From the NCBI GenBank assembly GCA_030141605.1, contig JAQGDQ010000074.1:306773-370772 (forward strand): a stretch of 64,000 bases of DNA. Direction: 5' to 3'. The notes beneath the pieces were generated by a model. It worked only from the letters and a program-made list of their open reading frames with translations. It searched no databases and was not told the DNA's origin. Shown in pieces: positions 55,501 through 61,500 of this stretch (the stretch's first letter is position 1; every line of letters begins with the position of its first letter). The translations under genes were made by a program, and so were the position numbers. The DNA comes from Tubiluchus corallicola. Lineage: Eukaryota > Priapulida > Priapulimorpha > Priapulimorphida > Tubiluchidae.

Positions 55501-58500
55501 CGTTTGAAAAAAAACATTGCAACTATCTTGAAAGTTTCAATATAGTACCCTAATCATCACGCCACTAAATTTTAAATTGGTTTGGCAGTTTAATAATTGT
55601 ACCAACGTTTACGGTAGGCGTAGGGTTTTTGGACTGTCCGGCATGCATTTTAGATTTGCTTAAACTATTTCAGGAAGTTTTACGTACGTTTACGAATGGC
55701 TCTGGACATAAATTGTCAAAAGATAAACAGTTACAATTGTTTGTTTACTCGCCTCACATTTTTCACGCTTGACCTTGCTAAAGCAAATAAACAAAATAGG
55801 AGAACAGAGCGGTCCAGAAATCTTCTTAAAAACGAAAAATTTGCCATTTTCAGAAGTGCAATTGCAGCCTGCGCCGGCTTTGACTTTCCGGACCATTGGA
55901 GGTATGTTTGACTTTTACATCTACATGGGACCAACGCCAGAGCAAGTTCATATGCAGCATACCACAGCAGTGGGTCGGACATTCATGCCGCCATATTGGG
56001 CACTTGGCTTTCATCTAGGCAGCTACGGTTACAACGACTTGGAACACCTAGCGAGAGTTGTGACTAGAACGAGAAACACTAAAATCTCATACGTGAGTTG
56101 GGTTAAATGTAGGTTAGTTTAGACTTTTTGGGGTTTCTCTTGATTTTTTGTTAGGAGAAATGGTTTTGGCAGCCAGCGTCATGATGTTTCTGCAAAAAGA
56201 TTTTTAAAGTTGGCAAAATTGTTTAAACTGCTGAAAATGTTTACTTGAGAAAGATGGAACTAACTCATTACCAACATTACATGTTTTGCGTCGTCTGTTG
56301 TTTGTGTGACAGACATTTGCGCTGTGTAGGCCAATGGGCTATTGTTTGAATAAGCAATTCTAGACCATTTTCATATTCATGGCGCCTTAGCGCGCGGGTG
56401 AATATTAAGAATCTTAAAATGTAGCATTTAATGGAAATGAGAAAAATATGCGTTATTATTATTTTGTGAAAAGTTTCAACTGAATTGGTAGGTAAAAGCG
56501 TCTGCAGGTGGACATAGGGATTAGATACAATAACTTATTGATTTTTGGCCAACAAGGCCCTCAGACAAAAAGTATACATACAACAATATTTTGCATTAAG
56601 AGTGTCATCGCAAATTTGATTTACGCAAAGAATGTAAAAATACGCCTTGTAACAAAGCACTTAAAACCTTGAAATGACAGAAAACAGCGTAAGGTTGCTG
56701 AACAACAACGCTTTTTGACGAAAGAGAGCTGCAAGTTTTTAAATGGTATGTTCACGGGTTTTCTTCTTACCACGAACGGAGCATCAGACACTTGCATATT
56801 TATTAAAGGCTGCAGTAGATACAGGTTGTAAATAATCATTTTGATCATTATGAGCATTCTAGATAAACGTGAGTGAATTCACTTCTACCGCATCTGATAT
56901 TTCGATGTTCAAAATGTGTCGAATAATTTAAGTACTATATTTTAACTACCTATATAGTACTCACGTAGCAGCTTTAAATCATTGTAGGTATTACCTCACA
57001 AAGCACATAACACATAATTATTGTCACACTGCTTTAGGATGCGCAACACACGGGTATCGACTACATGCATAATTTCACAGACTTCACGTACGACAACGTC
57101 ACATATCGAGGCTTTCCAAGTTTTATTGCTGACTTACACAAGAAAAAACAGCGATTTGTGATTGTGCTGGATACAGGAATAAACGTTGATGATTCTTCAG
57201 AACAACTACCTTACGTTACGGGTGAAAGCAACGATGTGTTCATTAAGCATGGTGATCAGGGCACAATGATCAAAGGAATGGTAAACAGTTATTGTAAACT
57301 TGATGTTACAGTACCGCTAGCTCACCAAAGTTACCTCACTTTTAGTATTATACAAGTTGCTTGGTTTTCTAGCGCCTTACAATTCATTAGTTACCGAATT
57401 TTGCTATCGCTAACTTTCTGTGTTATCTACCACTGTATGACAACCAAACTGACTAATGCGAAGCTATCTCGTAAAGAAACCTCTCTTTCGTTAACTTGTT
57501 TTGACATCATACTATCATTAAATTATAGTTATTTGGACACTGTTTTTTTTATTTCAGCTAGATGGCGTCGAAGTAGCATACCCTGATTTCGGAAAAAGAG
57601 AAACGCAGAAATGGTTTACAGACGAGTGCCAGAAATTTCACAAGACAGTAAAATTTGATGGAATAGATATTGTAATTTTGACATATTTGATATCCTCTTT
57701 TAGCTCTGTAACCTGATGACGTATTAAGCTCAGTTTAGGCGATCCGATTTTGTCGAGCAACGCAAGCGGATGTTGTCGTATATAGGGGGGGGGGGCTGTA
57801 TCAAAGAGCGTAGGATGTTACGTCTAAACGATTCAATTTGTTATTATACCGACAAAGTCGGGAAAGCCTTTCCCTCTGTCTCTGTCGTTATTGGGGATTT
57901 CCCCTTCGTACGCCATAGGGCAAAACATAAATAGTTTAATACTTATTTAAATCTATGCAGTATAATGAATAGCTGTAATATGCATTATTTGCACTATTTA
58001 TTGTGCGCTTTTACATTCATATTAAGTCTATAGAATGTCATGTGAACGCGAGAAGTTTTGTTATTGGTTATAATACAAGAAGTCAGAACAGTAAAAAAAA
58101 ATAAAAAGTAGAGCACCTCTCGACTTACATCCGACTTCATCGGACGAGTCAGTCGACAAGTTAGATGTTAAATTTTCCCCGTTCACACGACGTCCGACAG
58201 AGCCTGTCCGATTCCATCCAATCCATCCAACTTTATCTGGTTGTATAAATGATTCATCTGATTTCGTCTAATTTCATTCGACAGTCCGATTTTATCGGAT
58301 CGTGTAAACCGGGCATTAGTTTACATACGACCTTATCAGTCGCGCAGTATTATGGTTAATAATATAGCACGAATCAGGCCACATACACGTATTTTGTTGT
58401 CCTTTACAAAAAAGCTAATGTTTTTTACTGCATGTGTAATAGTTCTGAATTTATTACATCAGCATCAACCATTTTGTGTAAACACAGCCCTGACAAAATA

Positions 58501-61500
58501 AACAAATGATTCCCAAGCCTAGGAAAACAGTTCGAACACTTGAAAAAACATGGCTGCAAAACCTGCAAAAATATTGCAAACTGATTATTAGTTTCCGTTT
58601 TTGTAATTAGCTACCTGGTGACAAACAATGCTGTTACTTCGACGATATATTACACTAGAACGGGTCCCAGTAATTACTTTCAAGAAGTATCAAGGAAAAA
58701 GAGTCAAGTAGCGCCAAAGCTAGCCGTCAAGATTGTGTCAAGAAGCATCATTGGAGTCAAGCAAAACTTTTAAACACTGCCAAGAATAAAAAACGTCAGC
58801 ATTTACATATTAATATACTTACATTATAGTATACAATACATATAAGTACCCTATAGCGTCATTTTCTTGACGCTGTTTAGTTTGTCATGATTCTTGATGC
58901 TACTTGACGCTAATTAGTAGGACCACGGGAAATTCTGAGCTTTGCCAACGAATATGTCTACCAGGCGTATGTGTCCAAATTACATTTTGCAGGATAGAAA
59001 CGAACCAGAAAGCGAGTACGATGGTTCTACAACTGGCTGTGATGCAGAAAACAAACTGAACGACGTACCGTACACGCCTCGTAAGTATCGTAGTCCTTTA
59101 CGCCATCTAAAATACAGGAGGCATCACCTTTCAAGCTGTTAAAATTATCCTCAAGCAACCCCTGCCACTACATGCATGTCTGTATGTGTCAGTTTAAGCC
59201 TTGTTTTCATCCATATCATCCCGTATTCCTGACTTCAGAAGCTTCCTAATAAGTTTGAAAGTTTCCATATCAATCAACACTACTGCACTTTAAATAACTT
59301 AACGCTGCTTAGGCATACAGTGGTAAATGTACTAAATGTAAACATGTAATATGCACCCAAACCAAAAAAATCAATTTTCAGAAATAAGTGGTGATTTGCT
59401 GAGAAAACGAACTTTATGTATGGACGCTGTACAACATTGGGAGAACGAAACCTACACTCACTACGACCTGCACAACTTGTATGGACTGAGTTCAACAATG
59501 GCTACCTCCGCGTAAGTACTGCTATTATATTTTATGCCTGCCTTCGGACACAGTGTTTTAAGAATTCAATGCTGCTTGAGTTATGTACTTATGTAAAGGC
59601 TGAATAAGAGTGAGAACTCCTATCTAACGGTTGAACGAATGTAAGAAGTCTTTTATTTTCTTATTAATAAAAAGAAAAACTGAAGTGCTTCACTTACCTT
59701 TTCAAAATACTTTGTTTTTGAGAAAAATGGACAAAGAAAAAAAGAAATACAAAAGCGTATTTTGGTAAGAACTGGGTTTAATAGATATGCTGACACCTCT
59801 TAAGTTAACACAAATAAAAATGAACTTACAGACGTGATATGAAGGTATTAAAACTTTAATCACAATATTTCGATTCCCGAGTTTTACGGGAGTCATCATC
59901 AAACGTATAAAAAACATTATGAAAAACTATAATGTATAATTTAGAACGTAAAAGTTTGAATTATACATTTTTGTGGTTTCTCAAAGACATCTTTTCGACA
60001 CATCTGATGATAACTCCAACAAATTGAGGCAAAATATCATGATATCGTTATGATGTAATGAATATTGTTTTTATGATGTTATGTTTTTTTGATGAATTAA
60101 AGCAGGATTTCGTCTTGTTTTTTTTTAAATTTTGTTTTTTTAAATTGTAATTAATAACTACATATATTGTTCAGAGCCATGACAAAAATAGCAAGTGGAA
60201 AGAGAGGCCTTGTCGTCAGTCGGTCCACCTACCCTGGGTCAGGTAAATTTGGAGGACATTGGATTGCTGACACCAGCTCAAATTGGTCGGATATGCGAAC
60301 CTCCGTTATTGGCATGTTGGAATTCTCCTTGTTTGGAATACCTTTTGTAAGTACGTTTTCACAAGTATTTAGCACATCGTAGATATGAGTTGTATAAATG
60401 CAGTATTCACATAAAATATGAGAAATTTCGTCATGAGACAAAAATAGCGCTTCCACTTCGCGCAATTACTGATGCCTAAGTATACGTTATCTTGACATTG
60501 CCGGAAAATGCTATTAAATGGAAGAAGTCAAAAGTGAAAACAGAACACTAGGAAAAGAGAGGGTTTACAAGTTAGAGTCACAGCGCCATCTAAATTGTAA
60601 CATGGAAATCGCTTTTATGCTAAGCGTTCCGACTAGCTAATTCAAACACGCAGACGTAGCAACTGCATTAATAATTCTGATTAGAAGTATGCAACAATAG
60701 TAATGTTACTCATGCGTCATGCCCATGCTTATTAACGTGATTTTGCGTGACTGCTTACCTTCAATTAGCACAATATTAATTAAATCATTATTGATTTCTT
60801 TTGATTTGCAACGATTGATAGTGTTTGGACTTTAACCCATGTAATGCATGATGAAAGCAGCTGAGACTGTAAGCTCAATTAATTAGCAATCACTATAATA
60901 TACGCTAGCACTAAAAATGATAGCTGTAAGTGAGGTGAACGATGACCTCGGTAAAGCATCGAGGACAACAGGGCTTCAGTTTTTTCAAGTGGCTACCTAA
61001 ACGCTGGACTAACAACTACTGTGCTGCGCCAAAAATGATCAATGATACGCGCATGTTCCACGTAGTATTTTCTTGTTACATTTTTAAATTAATGATACAT
61101 TTTAAATTTCTTTTGATAGGTGGGAGCAGATATTTGTGGGTTTCGAGGCAATGCTGACTTGAACCTTTGCCAAAGATGGATGCAACTTGGAGCATTTTAC
61201 CCATTTTCTAGGAATAATAACCACAAAAACAGCACGGTAAGGTTATTTAGTATTAGTTGGCTAATCAAACACTGTTAGTAGATAACAAAAATGATTTAGT
61301 GTTATTATTTAAGGCAGATGTGAATGTCAATCTTGGAACACCTTCTCCTCCAGCTGATTCTAAAATCGAATTTTACCGAAACAATAGTTGTGTTATCCCT
61401 ACCAGGATTCTCCAAGTATATGCTTGGTGTTTCAAGCTTCCATGTTGTTGGTTGAAAACGATAACGAAAAAGACAACCTAATAGAAGGGTTGTTGTTACT

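Follow-up and report, generated by a model that had tools for sequence, protein, structure and literature searches.

When a GH31 protein keeps the residues that cut the glycosidic bond while those that hold the sugar are replaced, is it still an alpha-glucosidase? The question is raised by a gene in a stretch of 64,000 nucleotides (hereafter the window) from the priapulid Tubiluchus corallicola, for which a preliminary description had proposed a kept catalytic Asp pair and a rewritten -1 sugar subsite. Here, we examined the structure of this gene, its pocket residues in comparison with paralogues and enzymes of known structure, and the possible roles of its product.

Gene structure and domain architecture

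The gene lies on the + strand and has 19 exons that run from position 46222 to 2052 bases beyond the window end, with 924 stop-free codons. Its part within the window (46222..64000; gene model and spliced alignment) comprises exons 1-16 and 26 bases at the start of exon 17, and the remainder of exon 17 together with exons 18 and 19 follows beyond it (L009, extended coordinates to 66052). The span 57038-61236, to which the gene had been assigned at first, covers exons 7-12 only. Exon 1 (46222..46505) carries the start codon and the two features that had been named in the preliminary description, namely a hydrophobic signal anchor (residues ~4-25, 46231..46296; Kyte-Doolittle 19-residue mean up to 3.9) and a trefoil (P-type) domain (residues 49-91, 46366..46494; PF00088, E=3.5e-8). 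In the gene model, exons 2-6 (52399-52546, 53832-54001, 54478-54649, 55056-55155 and 55854-56092) encode the N-terminal beta domain and the start of the barrel, and exon 10 occupies 59382..59511. The end of the barrel and the C-terminal beta domains are encoded by exons 13-17 (61786-61937, 62726-62867, 63398-63519, 63711-63799 and 63975-64024).

Profiles of the GH31 barrel (PF01055, E=1.9e-96) and of the C-terminal domain (PF21365, E=9.1e-27) place the protein in GH31, and the two catalytic Asp of this family are present as D491 (nucleophile) and D595 (acid/base). The best PDB matches were chains of intestinal maltase-glucoamylase (MGAM), sucrase-isomaltase (SI) and lysosomal alpha-glucosidase (GAA), whose combination of a trefoil domain with GH31 it shares, and the alignment with MGAM-N (2qly_A) spans residues 48-845 (E=3.9e-232). 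As judged from its sequence, the product is a signal-anchored (type II) trefoil-GH31 paralogue of the MGAM/SI/GAA alpha-glucosidases, and the anchor suggests a location at the cell surface or in the secretory path. The segment preceding the last trefoil Cys was variable among the rows compared, and we therefore placed no weight on the second sugar site of the trefoil.

The claim that exons and splice sites are intact held when the gene model was rebuilt from the DNA: all 18 introns are GT-AG and the 924 codons contain neither stop nor frameshift. Spliced alignment of the window protein to the DNA returned the identical 19-exon model. A profile of five paralogues, from which the window protein was left out, reproduced 16 of the 19 exons exactly, the paralogue models behind it having themselves been located with the window protein; the exons that differed were 7 and 8, at their common border, and the last.

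Replacements in the -1 subsite

In the published structures, the valienamine ring is hydrogen-bonded by D327, R526 and H600 of MGAM, with W406, W441 and M444 no more than 4 A away (PMC9612090). In GAA, deoxynojirimycin has five hydrogen-bond partners, two of which are D404 and H674, and its hydrophobic contacts include W516 and M519 (PMC5653652). We mapped the residues by HMMER alignment to MGAM and by a 15-sequence MAFFT alignment, and give replaced residues in MGAM numbering. Both alignments confirmed the reaction-centre residues: D491 (58993-58995) in exon 9 (58993..59080), R579 (60221-60223), W592 (60260-60262) and D595 (60269-60271) in exon 11 (60175..60346), and F628 (61141-61143) in exon 12 (61120..61236). 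On the other hand, of twelve residues that line the -1 subsite, five were radically replaced (D327G, W406D, W441D, M444R and H600N). These correspond to G377 (57053-57055) in exon 7 (57038..57280), D454 (57561-57563) and D489 (57666-57668) in exon 8 (57558..57671), R492 (58996-58998) in exon 9 and N653 (61216-61218) in exon 12. A sixth change, D203N (N253, 54632..54634, from the alignment), affects a loop residue outside the list of twelve. According to the structural papers, the positions lost here contact O4/O6 or wall the sugar ring (PMC9612090, PMC5653652, PMC9061262).

Of the six replaced residues named in the preliminary description, G377, D489, R492, N653 and N253 proved correct, and the counterpart of W406 had to be moved from L453 to D454, because exon 8 is 114 nt long both here and in the paralogue C1060, the introns flanking it have the same position and phase in C1060, and W stands opposite D454 in the alignments. 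The nucleophile motif reads D-I-D-R-N-E, whereas all ten comparators (see below) have W-I-D-M-N-E, and the glucose hydrogen-bond partners D327 and H600, which are D and H in 10/10 comparators, are G377 and N653 here. The string DIDRNE was not found in the open-access literature searched, where WIDMNE occurs in four papers. In addition, an N-glycosylation sequon at N657 (61228-61236), four residues past the H600 position, is absent from every comparator.

Wrong exon borders or sequence errors could mimic such changes, especially as the paralogue-only profile picked a different exon 7/8 border, close to which D454 lies, as the second codon beyond it. With the alternative border (...GMVNSYYGVEV...), however, the Trp is still absent and G377, D489, R492 and N653 are unaltered. 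Furthermore, to account for the five radical changes, no fewer than 10 bases in the five codons must have been substituted (12 if I364V is included), and a scan within introns 6, 7, 8, 9, 11 and 12 in the forward frames gave no match to any of five motifs that represent the canonical residues. Different borders of exons 7, 8, 9 or 12 had been named at the outset as what might restore the standard residues, and no model that we tried brought them back. An error of gene model or assembly thus appears very improbable.

To assess how far the change is confined to this gene, we used ten comparators, i.e. six paralogues whose models come from the same genome as well as four PDB enzyme modules, all of which retain the canonical pocket residues. 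Core identity of the window gene to them was 40-47% (41-44% for the paralogues). Among columns invariant in the ten comparators, the window gene retains 4/10 in the pocket versus 49/56 outside it (Fisher p = 0.0026). When each comparator was compared with the other nine as a control, 10/10 invariant pocket columns were retained, or 10/11 for GAA, whose only exception is a conservative I-to-L; outside the pocket, the comparators retain between 56/56 and 56/63. H600 is retained in 7/7 uninterrupted GH31 frames aligned from the same assembly and, overall, in all 17 sequences compared, including seven divergent frames. Among the ten comparators, the pocket change is specific to the window gene.

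Several sequences were left out before counting: C419a (a partial inverted duplicate of C419b), C2112, C19 and C1691 (other GH31 types with poor spliced models) and four further contigs on which the C45 region recurs with an equal score. An earlier count (49/54 versus 4/9, p=0.0033) was dropped since it included a mis-modelled C45b, which reads V-W-P. C751a was used without its ends, and SI-N, GAA and the second MGAM module over the core only; L003-L007 entered the 15-sequence alignment only, L001 and L002 both alignment and tree, and L008 neither. The paralogue list is a lower bound, as 101/101 candidates were scored in one search and 49/180 in another, and further GH31 genes may therefore exist. 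In searches for orthologues in two non-eukaryotic collections, a whole-protein query of genome contigs gave 5 pattern matches, none of them a relative, and a 325-residue core query of viral contigs gave no match.

Possible roles of the altered protein

The preliminary interpretation is supported in part: a fold, gene structure and reaction centre that persist around a pocket remodelled where glucose would be held agree with it, and selection for another job, be it a new substrate, a receptor or a scaffold, may be the cause. The replaced -1 subsite residues, the specificity of the change to the window gene among the ten comparators and the lack of rescue by any splicing tried make alpha-glucosidase activity very unlikely; the protein is probably no longer an alpha-glucosidase. 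Now that G, D, D, R and N stand where other residues gripped the O4/O6 side and walled the ring, subsite -1 would no longer hold glucose, while the reaction centre is still in place. What we consider to have an even chance of being correct is a membrane-anchored orphan or pseudo-glucosidase, comparable to rBAT and 4F2hc in GH13, i.e. a surface ectodomain serving as a binding protein, partner or scaffold, for which the fold would be needed and maltase activity would not. The intact reading frame combined with pocket-specific loss is consistent with this, as is the private sequon so near the H600 position. There are precedents as well: rBAT is described as retaining its catalytic centre, with activity not shown (PMC8537225), and animal GH31 proteins that lack catalytic residues have already been published, namely dipteran proteins of lysosomal type and NET37 type (PMC8063059). 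However, both Asp, R579, W592 and F628 have survived deep divergence, and the chance that both Asp fall at random among four retained of ten pocket invariants is 0.13, which makes their survival a weak hint of catalysis. The rBAT triad, moreover, is reported to be incompletely conserved among its orthologues (PMC8537225).

A functional retaining alpha-glycosidase of switched specificity, in which the anomeric/O2 side is kept and the O4/O6 side rebuilt for another sugar, has a real if somewhat lower probability. Such a sugar could carry O4 in the axial position, or its C6 could be charged or substituted and be bound by D489, D454 and R492. The survival of the catalytic pair with R579 and W592, losses that are confined to one side of the sugar (O4/O6 or ring-wall positions) and the well-kept core outside the pocket would all be expected of such an enzyme. 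GH31 also offers a precedent: MYORG has K461 where alpha-glucosidase II has W562, two residues before the nucleophile, and according to its authors this Lys would avoid a clash with the galactose 4-OH and would likely hydrogen-bond it, W321 being a further determinant of galactose specificity (PMC9491548). Against it, MYORG has acidic residues, D353 and D354, for the 4-OH and 6-OH (PMC9491548), whereas the window gene has G at D327, the presumed counterpart of one of them. The retention of H600 in all 17 sequences compared, divergent frames among them, and five simultaneous replacements, one of them an Arg adjoining the nucleophile, also speak against a switch. We know of no GH31 specificity switch that involved as many as five simultaneous replacements. 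In its concrete form, a surface enzyme with the retaining centre kept and the O4/O6 side rebuilt by D454, D489, R492, G377 and N653 might act on a substrate new to GH31 (e.g. a charged, sulfated or axial-4-OH alpha-glycoside), which we put forward tentatively, at about one chance in three. An orphan or pseudo-glucosidase is narrowly preferred over a specificity-switched glycosidase like MYORG, and our preference for a non-enzymatic role over a new specificity is weak.

Finally, the gene might be in decay, under relaxed constraint since duplication and still unbroken. Its end branch, at 1.23 changes per column, exceeds that of every other animal row (11 rows in all, the next at 1.15), and the 13 end branches of the tree have a median of 0.61; this tree placed the window row without support and used an MGAM-N row with two copying errors. 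A lysosomal-type GH31 gene of the sandfly L. longipalpis that lacks catalytic residues is also described as poorly expressed (PMC8063059). However, the unbroken frame and splice sites, a loss concentrated in the pocket instead of being spread, and a GC content of 0.41 at third codon positions versus 0.35 in introns make decay improbable.

A paralogue with the cutting residues and without the sugar-holding ones offers a clean way to ask whether retention of the catalytic centre implies retention of catalysis. If active, it would add one more specificity to GH31. For annotation, such genes should not be named 'maltase' or 'alpha-glucosidase'.

Comparison with known systems

Animal glycosidase folds have taken on new roles before: rBAT and 4F2hc are transporter partners, and MYORG is an enzyme with an unexpected substrate. 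The window protein shares with NtMGAM and NtSI the trefoil, the GH31 barrel, the C-terminal beta domain, the catalytic pair and the equivalents of R526, W539 and F575, with a core identity of 47% to MGAM-N and 46% to SI-N. MGAM and SI also carry a signal anchor. It differs from them in the replaced D327, W406, W441, M444, H600 and D203, in its private sequons and in having a single GH31 module, whereas the MGAM chain 9kz6 gives two tandem matches. Similarly, GAA has the trefoil plus GH31, and the equivalents of its D518, R600, D616, W613 and F649 are retained here while those of D404, W481, W516, M519 and H674 are replaced; the signal anchor would also set the window protein apart from the lysosomal routing of GAA.

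MYORG (NET37), a GH31 alpha-galactosidase, is likewise a type II membrane protein with the catalytic pair retained, and in both proteins the Trp two residues before the nucleophile has become charged, to Lys in MYORG and to Asp489 here. MYORG belongs to another GH31 branch, its listed domains do not include a trefoil, and D353 and D354 are its residues for O4 and O6 (PMC9491548). rBAT (SLC3A1) and 4F2hc (SLC3A2) are also single-pass membrane glycoproteins derived from an alpha-glucosidase fold (PMC8537225), but they belong to the unrelated family GH13 and have a known transporter partner, whereas none is known for the window protein. The dipteran GH31 proteins (lysosomal-type and NET37 clade IV) were judged inactive from their residues (PMC8063059); these have lost the catalytic Asp, whereas the window gene keeps the Asp and has lost the residues that hold the sugar.

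Gene model and neighbouring features

The trefoil-GH31 gene starts at position 46222, comprises 19 exons and runs beyond the window end (it was completed with the downstream stretch L009). As the preliminary description had stated, exons and splice sites are intact, with 924 open codons and GT-AG borders in all 18 introns. The assembly carrying the gene amounts to 343.5 Mb in 2344 contigs and is probably that of an animal, judging from the splicing of its genes, the likeness of this gene to trefoil-GH31 enzymes of animals and the presence of a rhodopsin-type receptor gene in the vicinity. 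A separate spliced aligner gave back the same 19-exon model; when a profile of five paralogues alone was used, 16 of 19 exons were unchanged and the model departed at the last exon and by a moved exon 7/8 border. Between 9 and 14 of the 18 introns are common with each of six paralogues from the same assembly (position within one residue, same phase). Exon 7 resembles a fusion of two paralogue exons.

The predicted protein begins with a hydrophobic anchor, followed by a trefoil domain and the GH31 barrel with its C-terminal domain. The top matches among solved structures were maltase-glucoamylase (MGAM), sucrase-isomaltase (SI) and lysosomal alpha-glucosidase (GAA). The gene contains one GH31 module. 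Downstream of it, the first long open frame lies on the opposite strand and encodes a Gly-rich protein (L009 8036-9523, minus strand; a repetitive Gly/Tyr/His-rich frame of 495 codons with GYGGGHG repeats), beside which lies a small Lys/Asp/His-rich frame (L009 6011-6211). Upstream in the window, a long uninterrupted rhodopsin-family GPCR frame (30334-31635, plus strand; 7tm_1, E=1.4e-53) may encode a somatostatin/allatostatin-C-type receptor. A minus-strand frame (42641-43948) ends in a partial RING finger that covers positions 1-27 of the 42 in the zf-C3HC4_4 profile (E=3e-7); this frame might be exon 1 of a RING/TRIM-type gene.

Changes in the sugar-binding pocket

According to a review (PMC9612090), twelve residues of the N-terminal MGAM module (MGAM-N) lie within 4 A of the acarbose valienamine ring. 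At these positions, six residues are kept in the window protein (MGAM Y299, I328, D443, R526, W539 and D542, corresponding to Y349, I378, D491, R579, W592 and D595), one change is conservative (I364 to V414) and five are radical (D327 to G377, W406 to D454, W441 to D489, M444 to R492 and H600 to N653). The N-terminal-loop residue D203 is replaced by N253. The earlier observation of a rewritten pocket around a kept catalytic Asp pair stands, except that W406 had been placed one residue off, at L453. The alignments set this Trp opposite D454, and exon 8 has 38 codons and the same two flanking introns in both the window gene and paralogue C1060, which supports the assignment to D454.

An artefact of splicing or base calling was considered and rejected. 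The alternative 7/8 border also lacks the Trp and leaves the other four radical changes in place. In the forward frames of introns 6, 7, 8, 9, 11 and 12, the patterns W-x-D-(M/L/F)-(N/G)-E, R-(N/A)-H-(N/A/S), (V/C)-W-P, D-(I/L)-(D/E) and W-(I/V)-(D/N) matched nowhere. Hence neither approach yielded borders restoring the standard residues, a possibility raised in the preliminary description. Moreover, the five radical changes require at least 10 base substitutions (12 counting I364V).

Among GH31 genes modelled elsewhere in the assembly, six are window-like (C1060, C751a, C751b, C419b, C45a and C45b). All six, as well as MGAM-N, SI-N, GAA and the second MGAM module, have W-I-D-M-N-E, D327, W406 and H600; C45b reads V-W-P. 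Over window residues 342 to 666, all columns invariant in these ten comparators were counted; the window protein kept 4 of 10 in the pocket versus 49 of 56 outside (p = 0.0026, treating columns as independent), and the result was unchanged without C751a. Four of the seven changed non-pocket invariants adjoin pocket residues (V453 and P455 flanking W406, G594 before the acid/base, R348 before Y349), unlike P370, Y427 and W472. When each comparator was compared with the other nine, pocket columns were kept in 10/10 for nine comparators and 10/11 for GAA, and those outside in 56/56 to 56/63; the seven outside losses of the window protein therefore equal those of C1060.

All ten comparators have H600, as do seven divergent GH31 frames without interruption from the assembly. 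The comparators likewise all have D327, but only 4 of these seven frames do, so that D327 is not universal in GH31. The first of the frames (L001, G000:C215:1600690), on a long contig, has 1026 codons and a glucosidase-II-like motif, W-N-D-M-N-E-P-S-V-F; together with the other six (L002-L007), it possibly belongs to symbiont or other foreign contigs. In addition, the same GH31 region occurs with equal scores on five contigs (C45, C2048, C2100, C2197 and C2212; C45 was used), which suggests assembly duplication, and a partial copy in inverted orientation is present on C419.

The window protein has five sequons in its core (383, 391, 541, 599 and 657), none of which occurs in the other ten of the eleven rows, and it lacks the sequon at 596 that is common to all six paralogues. 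As a post-hoc remark, three of the five sit within 6 positions after pocket residues.

Possible function of the window protein

In GAA, five residues (D404, D518, R600, D616 and H674) form hydrogen bonds with deoxynojirimycin, which also contacts W376, I441, W516, M519, W613 and F649, and W481 lies at the tip of insert I (PMC5653652). By alignment with these residues, the window protein keeps the equivalents of D518, R600, D616, W613 and F649, with an aromatic residue at W376, and has lost those of D404, H674, W516, M519 and W481. MYORG is an alpha-galactosidase with Lys at the W562 position and W321 contributing to specificity (PMC9491548), and Asp482 and Trp517 of CtGII reach the 6-OH via water (PMC9061262). 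Judging from motifs, these contact residues would correspond to the H600, W441 and W406 positions, in which case the kept residues would be the catalytic ones and those on the anomeric/O2 side, and the lost residues those on the O4/O6 side.

It is strongly inferred from the sequence that the window protein is no longer a maltase, and the previously suggested selection for another job is plausible but unproven. The letters DIDRNE had no match in papers of the open library searched. Evidence for a pseudoenzyme and for a glycosidase with new specificity is nearly balanced. Loss of the sugar-holding His and Asp, an Arg adjoining the nucleophile and sequon N657, which lies four residues after the H600 position and is found in none of the ten comparators, argue for a pseudoenzyme. 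So does the end branch of the window gene, the longest of the animal rows (1.23; next 1.15) in a tree that did not place this gene with support among animal GH31 genes. On the other hand, retention of both catalytic Asp residues (chance 0.13 were the four kept of ten random) and the one-sided loss of residues point to a new specificity, for which MYORG is a precedent (PMC9491548). Precedents for a pseudoenzyme are dipteran lysosomal-type and NET37-type GH31 proteins, which are without catalytic residues (PMC8063059), and rBAT, which retains them but has no demonstrated activity (reviewed in PMC8537225).
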